Part shown: piece by piece, positions 1,380-20,149 of the stretch
Position numbering within the stretch: the first letter of the stretch is position 1
Layout of the letters: every line of letters begins with the position of its first letter
From: a virus
Length of the DNA stretch: 20,149 bases
IMG/VR virus record: IMGVR_UViG_3300042475_003008
Coordinates: 1 to 20,149 of that record
Strand: one strand, 5' to 3'
Program-made: the position numbers and the translations under genes
The notes under the pieces: generated by a model
Database searches by the model: none
Told to the model about the DNA's origin: nothing
Seen by the model: the letters and a program-made list of their open reading frames with translations, nothing else

Positions 1380-1856
1380 TTAGTTTCGAGTGTAACGAAA
1401 TATTTTATGTCCGTCTTCTAAAGACGCAATTAATGTAGTTTGATTCAATGAATCGCTAAATGGTGGCATATATGTGTCTCCATCATAAGAACCATTAACA
1501 TGCGTAACATAAAATTCTTTGATAAAATCCATGAATAACGTATATGTCTTTGCACCTCCGATAACAATAACATCTCGTTTTTCTGCAATTCCCAACACAT
1601 CAAACAGTGACACCGTACACATTGCTGTGTCATTTACTGGGTTGAACCATCGATCCTGAAAAGAATCGGTCAATACCAACAGTTTACGACCCGGCAAAGG
1701 TGGCAAAGTTTTGTATGTCGTAGACCCAACAACAAGATATTGATTTGCTGTAAAAGTCTTGAACCACTGAAAGTCTTCTTTGATGGTAGGCCAGGGAAGT
1801 CCACCACCCCGTCCGATTAGACGGTTATTATCCATTGCTGCAATTGCTTTAATCAT
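1380..1856 (-). CDS. folA: Dihydrofolate reductase
   Basis: NADPH-dependent reduction of dihydrofolate to tetrahydrofolate. The 158-residue length is normal for bacterial and phage DHFR. Visible motifs in order: IAAMDNNRLIGRGGGLPW (5-22) with the substrate-loop LPW; EDFQWFK (27-33), where Asp28 aligns with the catalytic acid; VVGSTTYKTLPPLPGRK (42-58), the cofactor-binding 'MGRxTWES..PLPGR' block; VIVIGGAKTY (96-105), the GG cofactor loop; and YVTHVNGSYDGDTYMPPF (116-133), with the conserved acidic turn and final strand. The start overlaps the stop of the CysC-like kinase gene by 4 nt (ATGA). It is in the same operon as the thymidylate-synthase-family gene, the classic pairing in phage dTMP synthesis. 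Confidence 0.95.
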   Translation of the reverse strand: MIKAIAAMDNNRLIGRGGGLPWPTIKEDFQWFKTFTANQYLVVGSTTYKTLPPLPGRKLLVLTDSFQDRWFNPVNDTAMCTVSLFDVLGIAEKRDVIVIGGAKTYTLFMDFIKEFYVTHVNGSYDGDTYMPPFSDSLNQTTLIASLEDGHKIFRYTRN

Positions 1857-2281
1857 GAGTTTATATATTCTTTGGCTTTGGCCAAAGTTTCAAGGACATC
1901 GTTAGTATCGGTATCAATATGCAAGTAATTATTAACCGGTGGCGAATAATAGTCAACCATTTTACCTTCTCGTTCACGATTCGATTTCAAATAGATTTCT
2001 TTAACGTTAGTCTTTGTTTTAATCCAATCACGTTGATCACGAAATGGACTAACTACAGACACAATATTGTAATCGTATTTGTGTTCATCAACCAAAATAT
2101 TGGTCATGATTCGTTCTATATTTAGTCTACGTCCAACCCGTGAGTAATCATTGTTGTCTGTCAATTTACGAAACATATCACCGTCCATAATCCGACAAGA
2201 TTTGTGTCGGAAATAATCACGCAAATTTAAAGCCAGTGTCGTTTTTCCACTAGCAGGTTGTCCTGTAATCCAAATTATCAT
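1853..2281 (-). CDS. CysC-like (adenylylsulfate-kinase-related) P-loop kinase
   Basis: P-loop kinase of 142 residues most like adenylylsulfate kinase. Walker A is GQPASGKTT (7-15). DGDMFRKL (33-40) is equivalent to the APS-kinase 'DGDNxR' substrate motif, SRVGRRLNIERI (47-58) to 'SxxDRxENIRRI', and VVSPFRDQRD (76-85) to the 'SPYRxxR' segment. The C-terminal part is short and lacks the 'KGLYKKA' lysine loop of true APS kinases; REREGKMVDYYSPP stands in its place. Sulfate activation is therefore doubtful, and phosphorylation of another small nucleotide or sugar is as likely. It overlaps both neighbours by 4 nt: the receiver-like gene upstream and DHFR downstream. Superfamily confident, substrate unknown. 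Confidence 0.8.
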   Translation of the reverse strand: MIIWITGQPASGKTTLALNLRDYFRHKSCRIMDGDMFRKLTDNNDYSRVGRRLNIERIMTNILVDEHKYDYNIVSVVSPFRDQRDWIKTKTNVKEIYLKSNREREGKMVDYYSPPVNNYLHIDTDTNDVLETLAKAKEYINS

Positions 2282-2670
2282 GGCAACGAAAAACTTCTAT
2301 TGTAACTATTGACGTAACTAACAATATTCTTTTTTCCAACGGGATTCATGCTGTGTACAGCAAACCTCGGATGTTTGATTCCCTTATTCATACACTGGTT
2401 GACCAAAAACTGAGCACACTCGTAGCCAGTCTTTTCCCGATACTTGTTATAATTGATGTCGTTCTGGTTTAAAGTAATGATGGGTTGATAGTGTTGATCA
2501 GACAAATCGTGGTCATACGTAACAAAAGTTGGAATGCCTTTGCTTACAATCGTATTACGAAACTCTTCGTAATTTCTTACGATAAGCCATTCAACTGTAG
2601 GTAACTTAATCCAAGTTACATCTTCTGGAACTCGGATGTCATCCAAAAAAATATTGTAGGGTTCTTTCAT
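2278..2670 (-). CDS. cREC-type receiver-domain protein, predicted cyclic-phosphate processing
   Basis: A 130-residue protein matching, from memory, the small family described as 'cyclic-phosphate processing receiver domain' (cREC). Visible signature: FLDDIRVP (8-15), with the acidic pair of receiver domains; FVTYDHDLSD (49-58); KTGYECAQFLV (80-90); and FAVHSMNPVGKKNI (103-116). The conserved Asp and His residues could form an active site. The family has been predicted from gene neighbourhoods to act in RNA repair on 2',3'-cyclic phosphates; I know of no direct assay. That prediction fits its place here, directly downstream of a polynucleotide-kinase-type kinase and an RNA ligase. The start is 13 nt after the kinase stop, and its end overlaps the CysC-like gene by 4 nt. 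Family fairly confident, chemistry inferred. Confidence 0.7.
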   Translation of the reverse strand: MKEPYNIFLDDIRVPEDVTWIKLPTVEWLIVRNYEEFRNTIVSKGIPTFVTYDHDLSDQHYQPIITLNQNDINYNKYREKTGYECAQFLVNQCMNKGIKHPRFAVHSMNPVGKKNIVSYVNSYNRSFSLP

Positions 2671-2683
2671 AGTTTTATATAGA

Positions 2684-3145
2684 TTACTTCACAAAATGAA
2701 CAATGTCAAATCCTTCTTCTCTGGAAGGTGTAACATAATTGTTCAACATACGTTCAATAACATCAGCCGGAACGTCACGTCCACCCTCTGCCCCACGCTT
2801 TTTATTCCGTTCAATAAGAATGTCCTTGTCAACAATAAAAACGTATGCCTCAAGAACAACACCATATTTTTTTGCTAATTCAACCCAAGGTTTTCGAGCC
2901 TTACGATGCATATTGGTCGCGTCGATCAACACGGTATTTCCGTTTCGGACCAAACTATCTGCTTCAGCTTCCATATATTGGAAAACCTTACCGCTCACGC
3001 TTTGATCGTTTTCATCTCTTCCATAGACTGCTCTAAGAGCATCACTACTAAGTACACTCACATGCGGGTGGGAGCGGTTGTATTTTTCAATCCAAGTTGA
3101 CTTGCCACTACCGGGAGCACCAACCATAACAATAATTTTATTCAT
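2684..3145 (-). CDS. Polynucleotide-kinase-type P-loop kinase (kinase domain only)
   Basis: A 153-residue AAA_33/PNK-type kinase, predicted to phosphorylate 5'-OH ends of RNA. Motifs: Walker A GAPGSGKST (9-17); LSSDALRAVYG (32-42), where the 'SSD' acid is the general base in T4 Pnkp-like kinases; VLIDATNMHRKAR (72-84), with the typical DATN; IERNKKR (111-117), the lid arginines; and GRDVPADVIERM (122-133), then PSREEGFDIV. T4 Pnkp carries a C-terminal HAD 3'-phosphatase that is absent here, so 3'-end healing must come from another protein. It starts 2 nt after the RNA ligase stop and is followed 13 nt later by the cREC-like gene. Kinase fold is certain; the polynucleotide substrate is inferred from motif pattern and neighbours. 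Confidence 0.85.
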   Translation of the reverse strand: MNKIIVMVGAPGSGKSTWIEKYNRSHPHVSVLSSDALRAVYGRDENDQSVSGKVFQYMEAEADSLVRNGNTVLIDATNMHRKARKPWVELAKKYGVVLEAYVFIVDKDILIERNKKRGAEGGRDVPADVIERMLNNYVTPSREEGFDIVHFVK

Positions 3146-3147
3146 TT

Positions 3148-4161
3148 TTATCCGTGTTTCAGTTCAAACTGTTCGCTGATAATCTTTCCGGTCAAACGTC
3201 CTTTTAGAGTCTCACTATAAGTCTCCACAAGAGGACGAACAACAATTCCCTCAGCAAAATTGCCGTTCTCGTACACTAAGTTATTTGCCATCTCTTGAAG
3301 TTGAGGAAGAGTCTTGTTGAACTCTGTACCAACATCCAACGTTTCAACAATAGGAACGTAATTGTAAAAACAAAATTCCTGTAACTCAGTCCATCCAAGA
3401 TACATACCCTTGTCAATATCAAACAAGTTAAATGCTCTGAATTGAATTTCGGACACACCCAACAAGTTGCCGTTAATGCCAGGTCCATAAACCTCACCTT
3501 GTACGGCAAGATTTCGACCAGACGCTTTCAGTTTCTCTTCAAGACCATACTTTTCAGCAATACGCCAAAAAGCGTTTTTCTCGTCGTGTTTCAACTGATA
3601 GTTACGACTGCACACTCCAAACAGACCATCCTTGATGTAGTAAGTTCCACTGCTACCATCAACCTTAACGGTGATGTAGTACGGCTTACCAGTCAACTCA
3701 TCAATGATCTCTGGATTGTTCTTGATGTTGTCTTCATCCGTCTTGGGAATGTAACTTGGTCGTAATCCAAACACTTGGCCAGCCAATTGAGCCGGAAGAG
3801 GCTTTTCGTAGTGTTTGGCATAAACATATTGACTCACATCACTTCCGATAATGCCCGGTTCAGAAAACACAACGGTATCGTGTCCAAGCTGCTTGAACAG
3901 AGTCAACGGAAACGCAATTCCTTGACTGATTTGTCCACGAAGTTTGACGGTCTTGATACGAAAGTGTTTGCTGCTCAAGAATTGATACGGTGGCTTGTCT
4001 TCAAGAACGCTATCAATGCAAATATAAATGCACATATCACCTTTCTTGAACTCCCCCTTCTTGATGCACACCTGCCATCCCTTGATGGTTGCGAGTTCCA
4101 ACGCATCGGCGTTGGGATGTGGTTTGACTTCGATAATTTCTTCGATTGTAGCGACTTTCAT
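3148..4161 (-). CDS. RNA ligase, DRB0094 (Rnl5) family
   Basis: ATP-dependent RNA ligase of 337 residues that seals 3'-OH/5'-phosphate ends through a lysyl-AMP intermediate. The N-terminal third (1-110) is the OB-like module typical of the Deinococcus DRB0094 group, with PHPNADALELATIKGWQ (15-30), GDMCIYICIDSVL (41-53) and KLRGQISQGIAFP (73-85). The nucleotidyltransferase domain has motif I KVDGSS (Lys166 is the predicted nucleophile), CSRNYQL (184-190), QGEVYG (221-226), motif III FRAFNLFDI (241-249), motif IV EGIVVRP (304-310) and motif V GKIIS (325-329). It is the first gene of an operon with its own promoter at 4168-4196, whose -10 box ends 6 nt before the ATG. The kinase gene follows after 2 nt. 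Family assignment is strong. Confidence 0.92.
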   Translation of the reverse strand: MKVATIEEIIEVKPHPNADALELATIKGWQVCIKKGEFKKGDMCIYICIDSVLEDKPPYQFLSSKHFRIKTVKLRGQISQGIAFPLTLFKQLGHDTVVFSEPGIIGSDVSQYVYAKHYEKPLPAQLAGQVFGLRPSYIPKTDEDNIKNNPEIIDELTGKPYYITVKVDGSSGTYYIKDGLFGVCSRNYQLKHDEKNAFWRIAEKYGLEEKLKASGRNLAVQGEVYGPGINGNLLGVSEIQFRAFNLFDIDKGMYLGWTELQEFCFYNYVPIVETLDVGTEFNKTLPQLQEMANNLVYENGNFAEGIVVRPLVETYSETLKGRLTGKIISEQFELKHG

Positions 4162-4199: not shown

Positions 4200-4223
4200 A
4201 AAACCCACCTTTCGGTGGGTTTT
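4200..4223 (-). terminator. Rho-independent terminator after the DUF262-HNH gene
   Basis: Perfect 10-bp inverted repeat AAAACCCACC / GGTGGGTTTT with a 4-nt loop. Read on the minus strand it continues into a run of T residues. It begins 18 nt after the stop of the DUF262-HNH gene and directly precedes the promoter of the RNA ligase operon. Confidence 0.9.
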
Positions 4224-4241
4224 CGTATCATATGTGGATCG

Positions 4242-5828
4242 TTATCCTACTTTCTGTTTCATATATTGATCAAAATGTTCGGCACCCTGTTTAAGGTTAT
4301 CAAACTTGTTGATCAAGACCGTGTTATCTACACTGGAATCTCCTCCTTTGGAGTGAGCAACCACATGACCCTTTACGAGGTCGTCGATTGGCATATCTTC
4401 TCCGGTAACCGCGTCTTTTCCGTTTTGACGAACATACACTGTGAGTGCTTCTACATCAGAGATGGTACGACGTTTGTCTTTGGCTAAGATACCAATTGAC
4501 TTCAATTGTTCTGGATTATTGACGTAAGATTCAAATGACTTTTCCCATTCAGAAAAAATTCCATCAAGTTCATCTTTGTTACGATGCGCCTTACGAGTTT
4601 TCAATCCGTATGCACTTTCAACTGGTTTACCGGTAACAGGATCAATTTGAACGACCAATTGATTTTGAACTGGATCAAATGTTTTGACTTGAGATAGGTC
4701 ACAATGAGTCACCCAGAACCACATGAAGAACTTACGAGGATCTTCATATTCAACTTCACAATTCTTCAAGTAATACTTTTCAATGTGGAACAATAGAGAA
4801 TACAGTGTAAACAGTGTACCTTTGTTAAGCAACATACCCGAGTTACGTTGAACGTTGTTGAATTGAACCATATTGTGAATCAATGTCAACCTATCCTTTA
4901 CGGTATTCAACAACTTTCTGAATGATCCTTCCTTGGAATATCGTTCATATAGATTATCCAATGATTGAATTCCTACACTGAAGTGTGCGTTTCTATCAAA
5001 GTCATCTTCAAACAAACAAAGTTCAGCCAGAGTGCGTTCCATTTCGTAACGTCCAAAGCTAATCTTTGTCCATCGTCCTACAACTTTTCCAGAAGTTGAA
5101 GTTGTGACTTCAAACAACGGATGAAGTTTGAATGTCTTGTGTGTTTCCGCGTCATATCGTGCAGTTTTACGAATGGCGACACATGCTTCTCCACCAAATG
5201 CGTTCCGCATTTCTTGGTCATTAAGCTTGGTTTTGTTGTTGATCTTACGAAAGATGTCAGCAATTTCATCAATTTGATAATTGACATACTGAGAGACATC
5301 AAAAGTACGTTCAACGAGAACATCCTCAAGGTATGAATCCAATTCCGGACTATACTGACGAAGATTGTTCAATTCTTTCCATGACATTCCACCCATGTTC
5401 AAAATCTTTCCTTGATATGGAACAATAATGTCATCATCCAAGTGATACTTGCTATCATCTTGAAAGAAGTCATAAATGGCACGAAGACGTTGACCACCTT
5501 CAACAACTTGCAACTTTACATGACCAGTGTCATCAGCAACTTCACGAATATGAAGTTTATCAAAGTGACTAAATCCGTCCTTTGCGAACAATGTTGATAC
5601 CCATTGTCTTCCAAAGCCAGACCAGCCGGTTACTTGTCCACGTTGATAATCTTCGGGAAATTCAAATCCTTTGGATTTGAATGTGTTGATGATAAACTTG
5701 ATTGAATAGTGTTTACGATCAACTCGCTTGTGGTTTGATTGAACTACAATACCGTCTCCAACGACCTTATTGAGTTTTTCCTGCGTTTTAGAGCCAACGA
5801 TTGGCGTCTTGTATATTTTATCAGTCAT
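4242..5828 (-). CDS. DUF262-domain protein with C-terminal HNH nuclease motif
   Basis: A 528-residue protein with an N-terminal DUF262 (ParB/GmrS-like) domain and a C-terminal HNH-type region. The DUF262 region shows PEDYQRGQVTGW (58-69), the 'YQR..xW' block, and VVEGGQRLRAIYDFF (108-122), the nucleotide-binding 'DGQQR' block in the form EGGQR. A helical middle section follows. The end (about 472-511) reads DAVTGEDMP, then GHVVAHSKGGDSSVDNTVLI, with His488, His492 and Asn502/Asn511 in HNH spacing. The zinc cysteines often found in HNH proteins are missing. Known relatives include the GmrSD type IV restriction enzymes that cut modified DNA using NTP. In a phage it might attack competing or host DNA; this is inference. 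It is monocistronic, with its own promoter (5843-5870) and terminator (4200-4223). Confidence 0.82.
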   Translation of the reverse strand: MTDKIYKTPIVGSKTQEKLNKVVGDGIVVQSNHKRVDRKHYSIKFIINTFKSKGFEFPEDYQRGQVTGWSGFGRQWVSTLFAKDGFSHFDKLHIREVADDTGHVKLQVVEGGQRLRAIYDFFQDDSKYHLDDDIIVPYQGKILNMGGMSWKELNNLRQYSPELDSYLEDVLVERTFDVSQYVNYQIDEIADIFRKINNKTKLNDQEMRNAFGGEACVAIRKTARYDAETHKTFKLHPLFEVTTSTSGKVVGRWTKISFGRYEMERTLAELCLFEDDFDRNAHFSVGIQSLDNLYERYSKEGSFRKLLNTVKDRLTLIHNMVQFNNVQRNSGMLLNKGTLFTLYSLLFHIEKYYLKNCEVEYEDPRKFFMWFWVTHCDLSQVKTFDPVQNQLVVQIDPVTGKPVESAYGLKTRKAHRNKDELDGIFSEWEKSFESYVNNPEQLKSIGILAKDKRRTISDVEALTVYVRQNGKDAVTGEDMPIDDLVKGHVVAHSKGGDSSVDNTVLINKFDNLKQGAEHFDQYMKQKVG

Positions 5829-6581: not shown

Positions 6582-6899
6582 ATGAAGTATATATTTTTGT
6601 CACTACTGTTGGCATTATCTGTGAGTGCTCAAGATCAAAAGAGGCCAGAACGTAAGGGTCCACCTCCCGGTGAACGTCCCAAGTTGACTGAGGAACAAAA
6701 AAAGCAACGTGCTGAACTTGTTGCAAAGTATGATGCAAACAAGGATGGCAAGTTGGATAAGGAAGAACGTGCCAAGGTTAGTGAAGATGATCGCAAGTTG
6801 TTGAGAAGTTTTGGTCCTCCTCCGGGTGGTCCGAAAGGTCCAAAACATGATGGTCCACCAAAAGATGGTGATCGTCCAACCAAACCAAAGAAGAACTGA
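6582..6899 (+). CDS. Secreted EF-hand protein, the only plus-strand gene
   Basis: A 105-residue protein with a classic Sec signal peptide: Lys2, a hydrophobic core at about 4-13, and a likely cleavage after Ala16 (SVSA-QD). The mature chain is very rich in Pro, Gly and Lys and has one textbook EF-hand loop, DANKDGKLDKEE (51-62), with Asp51, Asn53, Asp55, Gly56, Asp59 and Glu62 at calcium-ligand positions. A helix (36-50) leads into it. The tail (78-105) is Gly/Pro/Lys-rich and likely disordered. Predicted destination: periplasm or outside of the host cell. It has its own ribosome binding site, and it ends at a terminator shared with the convergent gene. Similar short Pro-rich EF-hand proteins occur, as I recall, in Verrucomicrobia and Planctomycetes, so host origin is plausible. 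Function unknown. Confidence 0.85.
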   Translation: MKYIFLSLLLALSVSAQDQKRPERKGPPPGERPKLTEEQKKQRAELVAKYDANKDGKLDKEERAKVSEDDRKLLRSFGPPPGGPKGPKHDGPPKDGDRPTKPKKN

Positions 6900-8319: not shown

Positions 8320-8367
8320 TTTATTTTAATTTTTTAGAACTTGAAATAGTAACTTCTTATATTCTTC
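8313..8367 (-). repeat. Ligase 3'-end direct repeat (copy B, in the intact gene)
   Basis: Direct repeat of 7654-7708 (about 51 of 55 bases identical by eye), covering the last 13 codons, the stop of the Rnl1-type ligase and 13 bp beyond it. Weaker similarity continues downstream: ATTGACTAT occurs at 7619-7627 and again at 8281-8289, so the duplicated unit was probably about 90-100 bp. Confidence 0.85.
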
Positions 8368-9432
8368 ATTGCCTAACGACTTACCATCAAGCAACTTGAA
8401 CAAAAAAGCCGCACGATTAGTATTACCATAAGCTGAAATTACTTGTTCAGCCTGTAACTTACGACTTGGTAACGTCTTGAGTCGGTTATTCACAAACTCA
8501 TTCATACCATTCACGATAAGATCCACTTCCTTCTTGGCATCACAAATACGGCTAATCATGCCACGACACTGTTCAGCCAATTCATAATCAAAGGTGGTAA
8601 AGATATAGTTATAAAAAGTCTGATAGTCAGGCATACCCTGTTCCAACCACACATCCATAACCTTTTCAATGTTTGACAACTCGCTCTTCATGTGGTGAAG
8701 AGCAAGATACCACGCACCCTTTACCTTGTGAAGCATTTGGTCATTCTTTGAATAAACAACCACACCTTCCTTACCTCTCCATTGGTCAACATCCTTTAAC
8801 AGATCTTCAACACCAGAAAAAGTATAGGTAGGAGGGCGTTTGAGATTAAACTCATTGGCCATCTCATTCAAACGGGATTGAGACCACACAGAGTAGTGAT
8901 CGTGATTTACCACGCCAACCAAATACCAGTCTGGTTCATCACCATAGTTCAACACAATCTTGTTGATAGGACTAACCCACTCAAACAAAATAGAATAGTG
9001 CCAACTACCGTTTATATCGACGGGCAAACAAACATCAAGGGTCTTGAGAATAGTATCCTTGAAAACTTCCAACTCATGACCATTAGCCATAGTAGAAGCA
9101 TCAACAGTTCCACGGGTACGTAGAATGTATTTGCCGTTATGCTTGCTAACAATCAACAATGAACCATCAAGCTTTTCAACCACGGTACAATGATTCAACG
9201 AATTGGGAACTGGAAAGTGTTCAGGATTCTCGCCCCAGTTGGTAAACTTTGGAAAGCCTGCACTGATAACTTCACCAGCATAATTCACAACCACACTACG
9301 CATGTGCTTGTTGTCTTGTCGCCATTTCGTGCCGATATGTTGCGGTTGAATCAAATGAACGATTTCTCCGTTGAGAAAGTGTTCATGCACCATGAATTGG
9401 GTGAGGTCAACCTTTTCTATGTCAATCTTCAT
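8326..9432 (-). CDS. rnlA: T4 RNA ligase 1-type (Rnl1) RNA ligase
   Basis: ATP-dependent RNA ligase of 368 residues, close to T4 Rnl1 in length. Motif I is EKLDGSLLIV (86-95), with Lys87 as predicted AMP acceptor. RTRGTV (105-110) follows. Motif III/IIIa is ILFEWVSPINKIVLNYG (148-164), with the FEW..P.N.IV..Y pattern of Rnl1. Motif IV is KEGVVVYS (221-228) and motif V HKVKGAWY (235-242). A helical C-terminal domain (about 245-368) fits the tRNA-specificity domain of Rnl1. In T4 this enzyme works with Pnkp to mend tRNA cut by host anticodon nucleases. Here it is far from the kinase (2684-3145) and has its own promoter (9439-9466). Assignment is strong; use of symbol rnlA assumes orthology with T4. 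Confidence 0.9.
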   Translation of the reverse strand: MKIDIEKVDLTQFMVHEHFLNGEIVHLIQPQHIGTKWRQDNKHMRSVVVNYAGEVISAGFPKFTNWGENPEHFPVPNSLNHCTVVEKLDGSLLIVSKHNGKYILRTRGTVDASTMANGHELEVFKDTILKTLDVCLPVDINGSWHYSILFEWVSPINKIVLNYGDEPDWYLVGVVNHDHYSVWSQSRLNEMANEFNLKRPPTYTFSGVEDLLKDVDQWRGKEGVVVYSKNDQMLHKVKGAWYLALHHMKSELSNIEKVMDVWLEQGMPDYQTFYNYIFTTFDYELAEQCRGMISRICDAKKEVDLIVNGMNEFVNNRLKTLPSRKLQAEQVISAYGNTNRAAFLFKLLDGKSLGNEEYKKLLFQVLKN

Positions 9433-11472: not shown

Positions 11473-12252
11473 TTATAGATCCGTGTAGTTTTTCAATTCC
11501 AACTTTCCATTAGTCAACACAAGATACTGATTCAAATGACAATCAATACAAATGTTGTTTGCGTCTGCAATGTTCATCACACCTTCGGTGATATGCTGTT
11601 TTGCTCGTCCGGTTTCCCATTGACTGGTATGACCCACAATTTGTCTCAAGTCATCAATAGGACTGAATTCATAATCAAAGTCACACCAAACGATTCCTCC
11701 AGCTTTAAATCGTCCTCCACGACTGTGGCCAACTTGGTAAAACCAATGAACATCGTTTGAAATCAACTTGGAAGAAACTTGTTGTGTCTGACTATCAAGG
11801 TAATTGAATATATCTGTATTGGTTTTGAGATGTGGTGGCAATAGTCTGTTATCTAACCCAGCATGAGTCAGTAGAATATCGTCCAACACAATAAACCAAT
11901 GAAACTTGTTACGAACAGATCCACGGTCTTTACCCAACGCATCGTCAATGGTTCGATATTTCCATTCTTCGTAACCACTGCACATTGCACTTTCGTTGTA
12001 ATATAGATAATGAATATCGTGGTTACCAAATAGAGTGTAGTTTCTCGGATCTGGTAGAAATGTGTCTCTCAGATATTTGGTAGTTGCTTCGTAATCCAAA
12101 GGGCTATCATATACAAAGCTATCATACCAATCACCAAGACAGATGTTGATATCCGCATCCTCTCGTTTGATGATGTTATCAAGTTTTTGAATGTCATTGT
12201 GGGGGTCAGCCACAATGACAACCTTCTTTTTCTTTGAGTTCAACGTTAACAT
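11473..12252 (-). CDS. Calcineurin-like metallophosphoesterase
   Basis: A 259-residue two-metal phosphoesterase. The open frame extends to 12291, but the promoter at 12259-12287 lies inside that extension, so the ATG at 12252 is taken as start (product begins MLTLNSKKKK). Metal-site motifs: ADPHND (15-20, the DxH), LGDWYD (39-44, GDxxD), GNHD (76-79), LLTHAG (127-132) and VGHTSQ (206-211), all in the order seen in PPP-like phosphoesterases. Substrates of this superfamily range from phosphoproteins and ApnA to nucleic-acid ends. Since the RNA kinase in this phage lacks a phosphatase domain, a 3'-end-healing role is conceivable but unproven. First gene of its unit. Confidence 0.9.
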   Translation of the reverse strand: MLTLNSKKKKVVIVADPHNDIQKLDNIIKREDADINICLGDWYDSFVYDSPLDYEATTKYLRDTFLPDPRNYTLFGNHDIHYLYYNESAMCSGYEEWKYRTIDDALGKDRGSVRNKFHWFIVLDDILLTHAGLDNRLLPPHLKTNTDIFNYLDSQTQQVSSKLISNDVHWFYQVGHSRGGRFKAGGIVWCDFDYEFSPIDDLRQIVGHTSQWETGRAKQHITEGVMNIADANNICIDCHLNQYLVLTNGKLELKNYTDL

Positions 12253-14809: not shown

Positions 14810-15379
14810 TCAATATTCAGTATCAAAGAAAAACACTTGAAACAACCTACAATTTTCAAGCGTTCGACCAAAATAATCACGACTCATGTGATATGCCTTT
14901 CCACGATACAATACCAACCGATTGAATACATTGCCAAAGGTATCAACGGTTTCCCACTTGGTTACATCACTTCCATCAGCATCAGCGTCTTTTGCCTGTT
15001 CATCATTGAGTTCTGTTGAAAAGTACGCACCTGTTGGTTTATGACGATACGTAGCTGTACCTCCAGTCAACGGTGCATTTGGAGTCAAATAACATATTCC
15101 CGCCCATGTATTGAATGAATCAGCATGAATCCACGACTTTTCCCATGCATAGGTGATTTGAAAAGATCCATTGTAACCATCATTCGGAAACGATGTGATA
15201 CGACCACCTGCGTTCAAAACAAGAGCCTGAATGGTGTCACGAATAGAATCATTGACCATCGGTTCAGTTCTTGCTCCCGGATAATTTCCACGTACCTTAA
15301 ATTCTTGACCCAATGCAAATTGCCGAACTTCAAGAGGATTCGTATAAAAATCGTCTGTGATAATAACATTTGTTCTCAT
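14810..15379 (-). CDS. DUF6445-like protein with 2OG-Fe(II) oxygenase-type motifs
   Basis: A 189-residue protein beginning MRTNVIITDDFYTNPLEVRQ, with YPGARTEP (33-40). A candidate facial triad of the double-stranded beta-helix oxygenase fold is visible: His85-x-Asp87 in WIHADSFNTWAGICYLTP and a distal His164 in LYRGKAYHMSRDYFG, with Arg159 placed to bind 2-oxoglutarate. GGTATYRHKPTG (106-117) is also typical. This layout is what I associate with DUF6445 and prolyl-hydroxylase-like proteins. It would hydroxylate an unknown substrate using O2 and 2-oxoglutarate. It sits between the carbamoyltransferase and two glycosyltransferases, so a sugar or modified-base substrate fits. Fold fairly confident, activity inferred. 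Confidence 0.75.
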   Translation of the reverse strand: MRTNVIITDDFYTNPLEVRQFALGQEFKVRGNYPGARTEPMVNDSIRDTIQALVLNAGGRITSFPNDGYNGSFQITYAWEKSWIHADSFNTWAGICYLTPNAPLTGGTATYRHKPTGAYFSTELNDEQAKDADADGSDVTKWETVDTFGNVFNRLVLYRGKAYHMSRDYFGRTLENCRLFQVFFFDTEY

Positions 15380-15413: not shown

Positions 15414-17147
15414 CTATTTTTTTAAATGTGTAATTACGAAGTTTTCAATACACAAAGCATTCATCTTGTTTCTCACAAAACAACGCATTGCATCATATGG
15501 CGATTCAACGATAGGTTCATCATTGCCATTGAAACTGGTGTTCATTACCAATGGTACACCTGTAAATTCATGAAACTTAGATATCAACTTGTGATACTTC
15601 AAATTAACATTTTTTGAAACTGATTGAAACCGTGAAGTATTATCAATATGAACCACAGCAGGAATCTTTGACGCCCAATTTGGATTCACTTGACTGGTCA
15701 CCAACATAAACGGTGAATAAACACTCAACGTAAAGATCTCAGACGCATACTCTTCAAGAACAGACGGTGCAAATGGTCTATACCATTCACGTTTCTTGAT
15801 CTCAGCATTCACATATTCTTTCATCCACGGTGCACACGGTGAAGCTAAAATACTTCTGTGTCCCAAAGCACGTGGTCCGATTTCTGATCCTCCACTGAAA
15901 TATCCAATCACCTTATTTTCTGCCAACATCTTGGCAATCGCTTCAATTTGTTCATCTTCAGAATCATAACGTTTAACCACAAAATTGTGGTCGTTAATTA
16001 CATCCATATACTTGTAAACACCATATGCGATATCAGTTTCACTATATTGTTTACCAAAGTACGCATGTTTCATCTGAGATGTAGTTTCTTCGTATCCCAA
16101 GACAACATGTCCATACCACGCACATCCCAACGGAATACCACTATCATCAGCTGGCGGTAAAAAGAAGTAATCCTTATATAATCCCGATTTGATCAACTGT
16201 TCATTGGTGTTACAATTCAAGAAACATCCACCAGCAACACACAAGTTATCACTGTTTGTTTCACGTTTGGCATGTTCAGCCAAAATCGTTATACCCCTTT
16301 CAAGTGATCTTTGATAAAGTCCAGCAATATTTGCACGTTCCTGAAATCCAGATTCATGGTTCACATGAGAATGATAAAAATGTGGCCAACCAAATACCTT
16401 AAACGATTTGGTTGCGGGATTGATATCAATCAAATCCGGTTGTTTCTCCAACCATTCAGTATCAGCGTATGATGCCAATCCCATCAGTTTTCCAGCTGCC
16501 CATGTATTGGTTTCAGCGTTGTACACCAATTGACGTGTTCCAGTTCCATAAAAATATCCCAAACTATGTCCGTCACCATTGTTAGGATGGTCTGGATGAT
16601 GCATGGGATATGAAACCCACTTCTTGTATACTTCTTTGTACTTTTGATCACGTTTGAAATGATAAATGGAATGTCCTTCGGCAAACTCACCTCGTCTAAA
16701 CGGATAATCATTATTGTACCAATCAGCAGTTTTGTTGTTGAACACACTTCCCATTGCATCAACAACAACAACTGCTGCATCATCAAATCCCGAAGAATAA
16801 AAAGATGAAAACGCATGTGCCAAATGATGTGGAATGTACACCAACTTATCAAGTGACAACTTTGTTTCGTTTACAAAGTGTTGTTCAACATGATCAGAAG
16901 CGTTCTTGTAGTCTTCTGTGAAGTTATAGACGTACAAATCAACTTGATCAAACCTCAATCCATAAGCGTCCAAACAGTAGTAAATGGACGCAAATGGAAC
17001 ATCGTAATCAGGTGTATGAGCATCTTTCCACGCACCATCATGTTTGATTCTTGATAGTCTTTCCTGTGAAATACCAATTTTGACTTGTCCATCAACAATC
17101 AACACAGCACCTTTATCATGACCGATTGAAAACCCCATTGTAATCAT
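15414..17147 (-). CDS. NodU/TobZ-family O-carbamoyltransferase
   Basis: A 577-residue full-length enzyme transferring the carbamoyl group of carbamoyl phosphate, through carbamoyl-AMP, to a hydroxyl. The N-terminal Kae1-like domain has FSIGHDKGAVLIVDG (6-20) and the metal site HHLAH (107-111), then VVVVDAMGS (126-134) and CVAGGCFLNCNTNE (303-316). The C-terminal part has GGSEIGPRALGHRSILA (419-435), WYRPFAPSVLEE (455-466) and VPLVMNTSFNGNDEPIV (531-547), all diagnostic. Known acceptors include Nod-factor sugars, antibiotics and, in a report I recall on phage-derived enzymes, 5-hydroxymethylcytosine. Here it precedes an oxygenase-like protein and two glycosyltransferases. The start overlaps the preceding stop (ATGA). 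Family certain, acceptor open. Confidence 0.95.
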   Translation of the reverse strand: MITMGFSIGHDKGAVLIVDGQVKIGISQERLSRIKHDGAWKDAHTPDYDVPFASIYYCLDAYGLRFDQVDLYVYNFTEDYKNASDHVEQHFVNETKLSLDKLVYIPHHLAHAFSSFYSSGFDDAAVVVVDAMGSVFNNKTADWYNNDYPFRRGEFAEGHSIYHFKRDQKYKEVYKKWVSYPMHHPDHPNNGDGHSLGYFYGTGTRQLVYNAETNTWAAGKLMGLASYADTEWLEKQPDLIDINPATKSFKVFGWPHFYHSHVNHESGFQERANIAGLYQRSLERGITILAEHAKRETNSDNLCVAGGCFLNCNTNEQLIKSGLYKDYFFLPPADDSGIPLGCAWYGHVVLGYEETTSQMKHAYFGKQYSETDIAYGVYKYMDVINDHNFVVKRYDSEDEQIEAIAKMLAENKVIGYFSGGSEIGPRALGHRSILASPCAPWMKEYVNAEIKKREWYRPFAPSVLEEYASEIFTLSVYSPFMLVTSQVNPNWASKIPAVVHIDNTSRFQSVSKNVNLKYHKLISKFHEFTGVPLVMNTSFNGNDEPIVESPYDAMRCFVRNKMNALCIENFVITHLKK

Positions 17148-18262: not shown

Positions 18263-18898
18263 TTACTTAACGTGATGATCTGCTTTCCTAATCTGTTTCT
18301 GATTCATGATACTAACAATTTCATCAAACAACAGAGGTTTGGCATGACCATCCCATCCACAATCCAATGTCAATCCATCAGCACTATCCACTTGAGTTGC
18401 TGGATAACTGTAATGACTGTGACCACACAACATATATGCTCCCTCCTTCATGTTTTCCCAAATGGCAATAGGAAAATGATTCAGAACCACATATCGTCCA
18501 TGAATGACGCACTCATGATGATAGCCAAGAATAGTCACATTGCGATATCGATATGGATAAACCTCAATATCATCCTGACAGTATCTAGCACAAATCATGT
18601 TTCGATACATCTTGAACAACGGATTAGGATGATTACCCCAAATCAATTTGATGTTTTGACACACAATTCGATCCAGATACGTTTCAAACTGCTTTTCATC
18701 AGTGTTCAAACAGAAATCACCCAGTGAAAACAGAATATCATCCGGACCAACCAGTTCGTTGATTTTGGCAATAACAGCACTATCATGTTCCTCGACGGAC
18801 GAATATCCACGCTTACCCCAGATAAACTCCTTCTTATGACCAAGATGTAGGTCACTTACAACCCAACACTTGGCATCATTATATTTTGCAACTTTCAT
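18263..18898 (-). CDS. Calcineurin-like metallophosphoesterase (second copy type)
   Basis: A 211-residue phosphoesterase with all metal-site motifs: SDLHLGH (15-21), LGDFC (59-63), GNHP (88-91, with Pro instead of the usual Asp or Glu), LNHFP (139-143) and CGHSHYSYP (158-166). It belongs to the short, stand-alone bacterial/phage phosphoesterase branch (SDLHxGH...NHFP...GHxH) rather than the PPP-like branch of the gene at 11473, so the two are not recent duplicates. Substrate unknown. It lies 13 nt after the deoxyribosyltransferase-like gene and ends the prs operon at a strong terminator, so a nucleotide or nucleic-acid phosphate substrate would fit. Confidence 0.9.
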   Translation of the reverse strand: MKVAKYNDAKCWVVSDLHLGHKKEFIWGKRGYSSVEEHDSAVIAKINELVGPDDILFSLGDFCLNTDEKQFETYLDRIVCQNIKLIWGNHPNPLFKMYRNMICARYCQDDIEVYPYRYRNVTILGYHHECVIHGRYVVLNHFPIAIWENMKEGAYMLCGHSHYSYPATQVDSADGLTLDCGWDGHAKPLLFDEIVSIMNQKQIRKADHHVK

Positions 18899-18911
18899 GG
18901 TATATACTGTA

Positions 18912-19424
18912 CTATCGGTTCACGATACATTCAATCAAATTCTTCAGAAATTCATCATAATCGTCGTAGTAGAACACAAAATCTTCCTTGGGTCCATCTA
19001 CAACCATCGAATTGTACGTCTTCAAGATCATTTGAGTTTGAAACTCAACATCAAACTTTCGACGATACTCGGGTTCACAGTAAATGAGAATCTTTTGCTT
19101 CTTGGGACTCATCAAGTTTCGTTCCAAAGCTGCACCCAACTCAAACAACGTGATCGGACCCAACGTTTCATGACTGAAATAAAATGAAATGATGTCTGCT
19201 TGATGCAGTTGAATGTACTCCCATTCAATCTGAACAGCACTTTCGTTTGGATCGTTGAAGTCGAAATGTTCCCGTCTTGGATTGTAGACGGTTCCATTAC
19301 ACAAACGAATTCGTTCAAATAGATTTTTCTGCCAATCTTTAGCACCCGTAATAGTGCCTGCAAAAAATACAGACGGATACGGAACATTCAAACATTCGTA
19401 ACTTGGTGCCTCAATATATTTCAT
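18912..19424 (-). CDS. Nucleoside 2-deoxyribosyltransferase-like protein
   Basis: A 170-residue protein of the nucleoside 2-deoxyribosyltransferase / DRTGG-like superfamily. Motifs: VFFAGTITGAKDWQ (19-32), the 'FLAGsI...DWQ' start; VYNPRREHFDF (46-56); VQIEWEYIQLHQADIISFYF (64-83); and ETLGPITLFELGAALE (86-101), where the Glu in FELG is the expected nucleophile. Such enzymes exchange or hydrolyse the base of deoxynucleosides or deoxynucleotides. Its neighbours (Prs, HAD-like protein, phosphoesterase) support a role in nucleotide salvage or in clearing unwanted nucleotides. The start overlaps the HAD gene stop by 4 nt. Confidence 0.85.
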   Translation of the reverse strand: MKYIEAPSYECLNVPYPSVFFAGTITGAKDWQKNLFERIRLCNGTVYNPRREHFDFNDPNESAVQIEWEYIQLHQADIISFYFSHETLGPITLFELGAALERNLMSPKKQKILIYCEPEYRRKFDVEFQTQMILKTYNSMVVDGPKEDFVFYYDDYDEFLKNLIECIVNR

Positions 19425-19885
19425 GACAAACTGTCCTCCATAATTCTTTTTTGTTTGGTGCTGTAAACCTTATCGGTGTTCGTTAATGCTTCGTAAATCT
19501 CACGCCAATCTTTGGTGCCATCAAATCCTGCTTTATCATCAAGTACAAAATTGAAGTAAAACTTGCTTTGAAAGTCACACAACGTTGTATTAGGACATTC
19601 AGGATTACAGTTAATTCCGTTAAAATTCAAATCAAAACGTTGAACCACATCTTGAATTGATGTCATATAACTGCTGGTCCAAAGAATGGTATAATGATCT
19701 GGACTATTGAATAGATAGTCAAGAGTTTCCTTGGCATATGGATAAATGACTGCCCCATCATTAAATCGGTTATACGTACCCGTAATGATAGTATCATGCA
19801 TGTCAATTGCCCAATACAACTTTTGCCATTTACGTTCAATTTTTTGTTTCTGAACGTGTTGAATAATTTGAGTCCAAGTTTTCAT
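19421..19885 (-). CDS. HAD-like protein with altered catalytic motif
   Basis: A 154-residue HAD-fold protein. Motif I region WAIDMHDTII (25-34) has Asp28 in the nucleophile position, but the usual second Asp two residues on is His30, with Asp31 following. Motif II is ILWTSSY (67-73 region), and motif IV is VLDDKAGFD with the paired aspartates. Spacing is right for a capless HAD such as a phosphatase or nucleotidase. The DxH-D arrangement could shift the acid/base role to Asp31 or remove phosphatase turnover. Its start overlaps prs and its end overlaps the deoxyribosyltransferase-like gene, each by 4 nt, so it belongs to nucleotide metabolism by context. Confidence 0.75.
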   Translation of the reverse strand: MKTWTQIIQHVQKQKIERKWQKLYWAIDMHDTIITGTYNRFNDGAVIYPYAKETLDYLFNSPDHYTILWTSSYMTSIQDVVQRFDLNFNGINCNPECPNTTLCDFQSKFYFNFVLDDKAGFDGTKDWREIYEALTNTDKVYSTKQKRIMEDSLS

Positions 19886-20149
19886 ACAAACAGTTCACTT
19901 ACACTTTCATTCTTGTTGATACTACGAATAGCTTTAGCAAACAACATACTTACATCCAATTCTGTAACATTAGCTGGTTTAAATCCAATATTACCCCATG
20001 TATTTGTTGTATTGCTATGAATAAATTCGTCAATACTATTATTCTCTGCCAATCGTTTGATACCCATATCAGTCAAACAACCATGCGTAACAGCACAAGT
20101 TACCTTTGTAGCACCTTGTTTCTTACATTCATTAGCCGCCTGAACCATT
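19882..20149 (-). CDS. prs: Ribose-phosphate pyrophosphokinase, C-terminal part
   Basis: Partial gene entering from the right edge; the last 88-89 residues are present. The sequence reads CKKQGATKVTCAVTHGCLTD, then SIDEFIHSNTT, then ELDVSMLFAKAIRSINKNESVSELF. It matches the end of bacterial PRPP synthases: 'L...GA..V.A..TH..F', the 'I....VTDT' strand and the 'S....LAEAI.RI...ESVS.LF' C-terminus, which are diagnostic in combination. The enzyme makes PRPP from ribose 5-phosphate and ATP for nucleotide and NAD synthesis. Large phages such as KVP40 carry prs next to nampt for NAD salvage; whether nampt is present here lies outside the window. The internal ATG at 20148 is not the start. Confidence 0.88.
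   Translation of the reverse strand, partial: MVQAANECKKQGATKVTCAVTHGCLTDMGIKRLAENNSIDEFIHSNTTNTWGNIGFKPANVTELDVSMLFAKAIRSINKNESVSELFV

Follow-up and report, generated by a model that had tools for sequence, protein, structure and literature searches.

Gene content of the locus

The window analysed here is the whole 20,149-base virus record IMGVR_UViG_3300042475_003008, a fragment whose genes lie almost all on the minus strand. Three adjacent minus-strand open reading frames lie between positions 2278 and 4161 and encode, in order, an ATP-dependent RNA ligase (4161–3148, 337 aa), a kinase-only polynucleotide 5'-kinase (3145–2684, 153 aa) and a cREC protein (2670–2278, 130 aa). This adjacency is as the initial annotation had described it: the reading frames are present, the families are matched by profile, and the catalytic motifs are intact. 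The family assignments and the RNA-repair reading attached to them are likewise supported, both by the profile matches and by recurrence.

The grouping is real but does not form the closed three-gene cassette originally proposed. The end of the cREC gene overlaps by 4 nt (ATGA) the start of a gene for an APS-kinase-like P-loop kinase (1853–2281, minus strand, 142 aa; PF01583, 1e-12), which in turn overlaps a DHFR gene; the transcription unit is therefore probably longer, with the three genes as its first part. The APSK-DHFR(-TS) order is kept in relatives that have no neighbouring ligase and kinase, which groups the APS-kinase-like gene with DHFR and not with RNA repair. The set can do without this gene, since it is missing or truncated in four relatives (L014, L015, L016 and L018).

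The three genes had also been placed behind one promoter, which is plausible from the sequence in front of the ligase gene. A promoter-like element (TTGACA-17-TAAAGT, 4196–4168, minus strand) ranks among the best-scoring matches in this region. Matches of this kind are nevertheless no commoner than in shuffled sequence, and the -35 is variable (TTGACT in three relatives, absent in two). The element is directly preceded by a terminator-like hairpin, read from the sequence (AAAACCCACC-TTTC-GGTGGGTTTT, 4200–4223), which lies between the ligase gene and a GmrSD-like gene and occurs also in L009, L014 and L015. The latter gene, directly upstream of the ligase (4242–5828, minus strand), has a weak, below-cut-off similarity to GmrSD_N/DUF262 as well as weak endonuclease VII/HNH-type matches, and is present in some relatives only.

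Elsewhere in the window, the only clear plus-strand gene (6582–6899) encodes a small, secreted-looking Pro/Gly/Lys-rich protein with an EF-hand-like loop and no match in a Pfam search; most relatives have it, likewise in the opposite orientation. The minus strand also carries genes for a DUF6445 protein (14810–15379; 4e-12) and a NodU/Nol-type carbamoyltransferase (15414–17147; PF16861, 2e-65; phrog_1601), the latter near two glycosyltransferase-like genes. Neither the window nor the loci of its phage group yielded a tRNA; contig L004 contains four.

The RNA ligases and the polynucleotide kinase

The 337-aa protein consists of an N-terminal OB domain (PF21189, 2e-28) and a nucleotidyltransferase domain (PF09414 RNA_ligase, 8e-24; phrog_968, 3e-59), and its motif I reads K166-V-D-G-S, with K-x-D-G-S invariant in seven sequences. 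This combination of an OB domain and a KxDG-bearing nucleotidyltransferase is that of OB-type RNA ligases (NgrRnl/DraRnl type), and the protein is predicted to seal 5'-phosphate to 3'-OH RNA ends. It shares its architecture with DRB0094 (DraRnl) and the Naegleria gruberi RNA ligase. The sequence comparison is with the N. gruberi enzyme, the sole match among solved proteins (2e-51; residues 2–311, approximately 310 residues); unlike these two, the window enzyme is phage-borne and lies beside a kinase and cREC. Around OB-type ligase genes in five other phages, none of the neighbours is annotated as a kinase, many being hypothetical. A second RNA ligase of the T4 Rnl1 type (8326–9432, minus strand, 368 aa; PF09511, 4e-15; phrog_562, 5e-38) is encoded in the window and is kept in relatives.

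The 153-aa kinase (P-loop GAPGSGKST, D35xxR38, lid R113–R117) matches the profiles AAA_33 (5e-30) and phrog_505 (1e-25), the latter over positions 1–143 of 295 only, which marks it as a kinase without the phosphatase half. Searches of large related contigs from this group gave no match to the C-terminal HAD phosphatase half of PNKP. A HAD-like open reading frame at 19421–19885, considered as the missing PNKP phosphatase, was rejected, as it matches phrog_1238 only and not the phosphatase half of phrog_505. Among solved proteins, the 153-aa kinase comes closest to the kinase domain of Clostridium thermocellum Pnkp (3e-19; the entry is listed as "Metallophosphoesterase", which we take to be Pnkp) and then T4 Pnk (5e-14). 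Residues G9–T17, D35, R38, R113 and R117 are invariant in seven sequences, so that the P-loop, the aspartate with an arginine three residues on, and the arginine lid of Pnk-type 5'-kinases are all present. In the alignment, D35 falls at the position of the catalytic aspartate, the general base, in C. thermocellum Pnkp. By its clear homology to characterised enzymes, the window kinase would phosphorylate the 5'-OH ends of cut RNA.

Two known repair systems provide a frame of reference. In comparison with T4 Pnkp and Rnl1, the window likewise has a T4 Pnk-type 5'-kinase and an Rnl1-type ligase, and the same joining chemistry is expected; it differs in that the kinase has no PNKP phosphatase domain, and in that an OB-type ligase and cREC are added. 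C. thermocellum Pnkp, of the bacterial Pnkp/Hen1 repair system, pairs its kinase with a metallophosphoesterase. Among solved structures, that kinase domain is the one most similar to the window kinase, but in the window the kinase, ligase and phosphatase are separate genes, and no Hen1 was identified there.

Fold and conserved residues of cREC

Similarity of the 130-aa protein to the cREC family is clear (PF20274, 1e-17; 64.9 bits against a curated cut-off of 27), in agreement with the initial annotation. A sequence search against solved structures returned nothing up to E=10. The AlphaFold2 model (pLDDT 86) has four strands, with the fifth absent, and gave no significant Foldseek match (best E 0.16). 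On a structural second look, the best 50 matches were all receiver domains or receiver-containing entries (Z 8.0–9.2; rmsd 2.5–4.3; 85–102 residues aligned). A Z value near 8 may by itself reflect a common structural arrangement; it is the uniformity of the match list, together with the receiver-like positions of D10, D11, D53 and S107 in the model, that supports a relationship to receiver domains.

The best structural alignments reach only to around residue 100 of about 120, which indicates that the lysine-bearing strand of receivers is missing, and at K113/K114 there is no invariant lysine among 80 homologs from phages and bacteria. In other words, cREC lacks the fifth strand with its conserved lysine that would make it a two-component receiver, and no partner histidine kinase was recognised among the scanned window proteins, which represent part of the open reading frames of a fragment. 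The same 80 homologs are virtually uniform at a set of other positions: D10, D11, R13, D53, D55 and H106 are each conserved in 79, H54 in 78 and S107 in 77. The two invariant histidines are not features of receivers.

Recurrence in related phages

The relatives, gathered by scanning viral contigs, have ligases that are 75–97% identical. The order of ligase, kinase and cREC recurs, recurrence being a check that the initial annotation had set; it is kept in some six distinct genomes of related phages, with kinase and cREC adjacent in all of them, so the grouping is not due to chance. The ligase gene lies directly upstream of kinase-cREC in two groups and 170–180 nt off in two others. In L017 an unrelated gene of 262 residues, running in the other direction, lies between it and kinase-cREC, and a gap of equal size is found in L014, L015 and L018.

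A sister group (L026–L034) is arranged differently. Here cREC stays near the APS-kinase, DHFR and TS genes and mostly a metallophosphatase gene, while the kinase and ligase, where they could be placed, are approximately 9–16 kb from cREC. This separation counts against a role of cREC in RNA repair.

cREC neighbourhoods in other phages and in bacteria

A link between cREC and RNA ligases, and with it the hypothesis that cREC acts on cyclic phosphates, was published in 2021–2022 (PMC7824862, PMC9503650); the later account describes cREC as experimentally uncharacterised, with cyclic-phosphate cleavage as a prediction (PMC9503650). The published neighbourhoods are from phages and bacteria (PMC7824862; PMC9503650); those of the V5/Mydo type contain a sirtuin, a T4-like tRNA ligase, cREC, a nucleotide kinase, MazG and sometimes a calcineurin-like phosphoesterase (PMC9503650). 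They resemble the window in combining cREC with an ATP-dependent RNA ligase and a kinase, and carry the same functional prediction. They differ in that the window has an OB/NgrRnl-type ligase, a Pnk-type kinase domain and downstream APS-kinase/DHFR genes, and no sirtuin or MazG was recognised near its cassette. In the literature examined we did not find the OB-type ligase family, a Pnkp split around cREC, the recurrent phrog_547 partner described below, or a model without Rec strand 5 and with the invariant histidines.

Ochrobactrum phage OC provides the most informative of the separate groupings, with four neighbouring genes for a PNKP-type phosphatase, cREC, Rnl1 and a kinase domain (PF13671, 7e-15). 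The first of these (L046 5546–5986, QIG65775.1) is annotated as a polynucleotide kinase and corresponds to the phosphatase half of PNKP (PF25109, 4e-15). Nearby are a phrog_547 phosphoesterase gene, a macro-domain gene and NadR/PnuC. Judged by these profiles, the locus amounts to a T4 Pnkp whose two halves flank cREC and the ligase. The initial annotation had called the three window genes a split version of T4 Pnkp/Rnl1, a description that is literally true of phage OC but not of the window. Since phage OC has both proteins, cREC is no simple stand-in for the PNKP phosphatase. In T4, the PNKP phosphatase handles cyclic ends; cREC would accordingly be redundant in phage OC, which counts against the repair reading.

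Acinetobacter phage AciJM_313 has a PRPP synthetase/Nampt pair followed by cREC and then a full Pnkp, and in LR756502 cREC is 2.4 kb from a kinase gene. In two Chryseobacterium genomes, cREC occurs with an RNase H-like protein, an Rnl2-type ligase (PF09414 and PF18043), a beta-lactamase-fold protein, a phrog_547 phosphoesterase and an exonuclease; four further Chryseobacterium genomes have parts of the cREC/Rnl2/phosphoesterase gene set. Thus cREC is found beside three RNA-ligase families, namely the OB/NgrRnl type (window), Rnl1 (phage OC) and Rnl2 (Chryseobacterium), which supports a function in RNA repair.

The broader bacterial context points in another direction. Among 51 bacterial cREC loci (L059–L110), the genes seen most often beside cREC are those for WYL-type regulators and not those for ligases; such a regulator is among the nearest neighbours in 22 of the 51, as judged by eye from one member. 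This counts against the repair reading, and the surroundings resemble a defence-island context. AAA ATPase genes and DUF262-looking genes are also nearby in several of these loci.

Candidate phosphatases

The three window genes had been credited with sealing, 5' phosphorylation and, hypothetically, ring opening. The ligase and kinase families bear this out for the first two, but a 3'-phosphatase is missing from the set. A general point made previously is that phosphate must be removed by a phosphatase before ATP-dependent ligation (PMC7824862). On their own, the three genes are insufficient for the repair of a 2',3'-cyclic end, because the opened ring leaves a phosphate that the ligase is unable to use. 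The locus is thus real, and its main points were correctly named, but it is incomplete on its own as a repair pathway.

Two genes of the window are candidates for the missing step. The first encodes a PPP-type metallophosphatase (11473–12252, minus strand, 259 aa; PF00149, 5e-8; model pLDDT 84). Sequence and profile searches against solved structures gave nothing meaningful for this protein. The model matches a Shewanella phosphatase, PP5 and ApaH (Z 16–18), and the modelled fold is clearly PPP-type, a fold that does not distinguish between protein, Ap4A and RNA substrates. The gene is found in eight related records, at 1.5–5.7 kb from cREC in the relatives measured, and its product may be the 3'-phosphatase or cyclic phosphodiesterase of the system.

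The second candidate is a calcineurin-like phosphoesterase (18263–18898, minus strand, 211 aa; phrog_547, 6e-40). Genes of this family adjoin cREC in phage contig L007, three Chryseobacterium genomes and Sulfitobacter dubius, are approximately 1 kb from it in Flavobacterium phage immuto, and are 2–3 kb from it in phage OC and three more Chryseobacterium. Each of seven bacterial genomes (six Chryseobacterium and the Sulfitobacter) has only one strong phrog_547 gene in its 3.7–5.3 Mb, so the closeness to cREC is not a consequence of abundance. The bacterial association comprises two lineages only, most of the 51 bacterial loci being without phrog_547.

Proposed function

We consider the best explanation to be a phage RNA-repair cassette in which cREC is most likely the opener of cyclic phosphates and a metallophosphatase is supplied from elsewhere in the phage, a reading to which we assign a probability of roughly 0.5. 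In this scheme the kinase would add phosphate to the 5'-OH ends of cut RNA. cREC, as a receiver-derived phosphoesterase, may open the 2',3'-cyclic phosphate that metal-independent ribonucleases leave behind or, alternatively, a closely related cyclic phosphate formed during repair. The leftover 2'- or 3'-phosphate would be removed by the metallophosphatase at 11473–12252 or that at 18263–18898, and the OB-type ligase would join the 5'-phosphate to the 3'-OH end, so that tRNA or other RNA cut by a host defence would be restored; counter-defence against anticodon nucleases, as suggested in the initial annotation, is a possible setting. The nearly invariant acidic and histidine residues on a receiver fold support cREC as an enzyme in such a pathway. 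A more specific proposal, which we offer tentatively and hold with rather less than even confidence, is that the loss of strand 5 and its lysine reduced cREC to a minimal, four-stranded receiver and that the protein became a true phosphoesterase, with an active site built from Asp and His residues (D10, D11, D53, H54, D55, H106), acting in sequence with a dedicated metallophosphoesterase.

A different substrate is the strongest alternative, although we regard it as somewhat unlikely. cREC might degrade or bind cyclic ADP-ribose-type immune signals, or ADP-ribose 1'',2''-cyclic phosphate, rather than act on RNA, and share only a counter-defence block with the repair genes. Consistent with this, NAD or ADP-ribose genes are neighbours of cREC in many phages: it adjoins NadR/PnuC in AhSzq-1, follows the PRPP-synthetase/Nampt pair in AciJM_313, lies within Nampt-Sir2-nudix blocks in jumbo phages, and has macro-domain genes nearby in OC and phi17:2. 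Nampt-type genes are present in 13 of the 20 cREC-bearing phage records searched, a figure that includes several fragments and stands without a base rate for large phages. A different phage enzyme, from a NARP1 locus, cleaves 2'cADPR/3'cADPR and feeds NAD+ synthesis (PMC13232231, a 2026 preprint). The end of the window (18912–20148, minus strand) carries a nucleoside deoxyribosyltransferase-like gene, the HAD-like reading frame and the end of a PRPP-synthetase-like gene; given the Nampt-type genes of relatives, a NARP1-like NAD+ pathway may start beyond the window edge. Against this substrate, the direct neighbours of cREC in the window group are the kinase and ligase, no KptA or 2H partner was found in that group (such partners being rare elsewhere), and links between cREC and ligases occur in cells and phages alike. 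Roles at RNA ends and on NAD-derived signals could both hold, for different members of the family.

It is improbable that cREC is no enzyme and serves instead as a regulator or a sensor of ligands, a remnant of a receiver that would adjust the repair enzymes on binding a cyclic or phosphorylated nucleotide. The loss of Rec strand 5 and of the conserved lysine, and the frequency of WYL-type regulators beside bacterial cREC, would suit such a protein, but the near-absolute conservation of D10, D11, R13, D53, H54, D55, H106 and S107 in the 80 homologs is more like that of an active site. Least probable is the absence of any functional link, with early and metabolic phage genes simply piling up and cREC riding with an APS-kinase/DHFR/TS nucleotide module, as the run-on of the transcription unit into the APS-kinase-like and DHFR genes and the retention of that module near cREC, without ligase and kinase, in the sister group might suggest; groupings of cREC with a ligase or kinase arise independently in unrelated phages and bacteria.

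cREC is a large family in phages and bacteria whose members are predicted to represent a new type of enzyme. If the phosphoesterase proposal is true, it would represent a further, unrelated solution to the healing of cyclic RNA ends, besides the 2H enzymes and the Pnkp phosphatases. The loci described here offer a compact testable set of three small proteins and two candidate phosphatases, and knowledge of the cREC substrate would separate the healing of cut RNA from the destruction of NAD-derived alarm signals.
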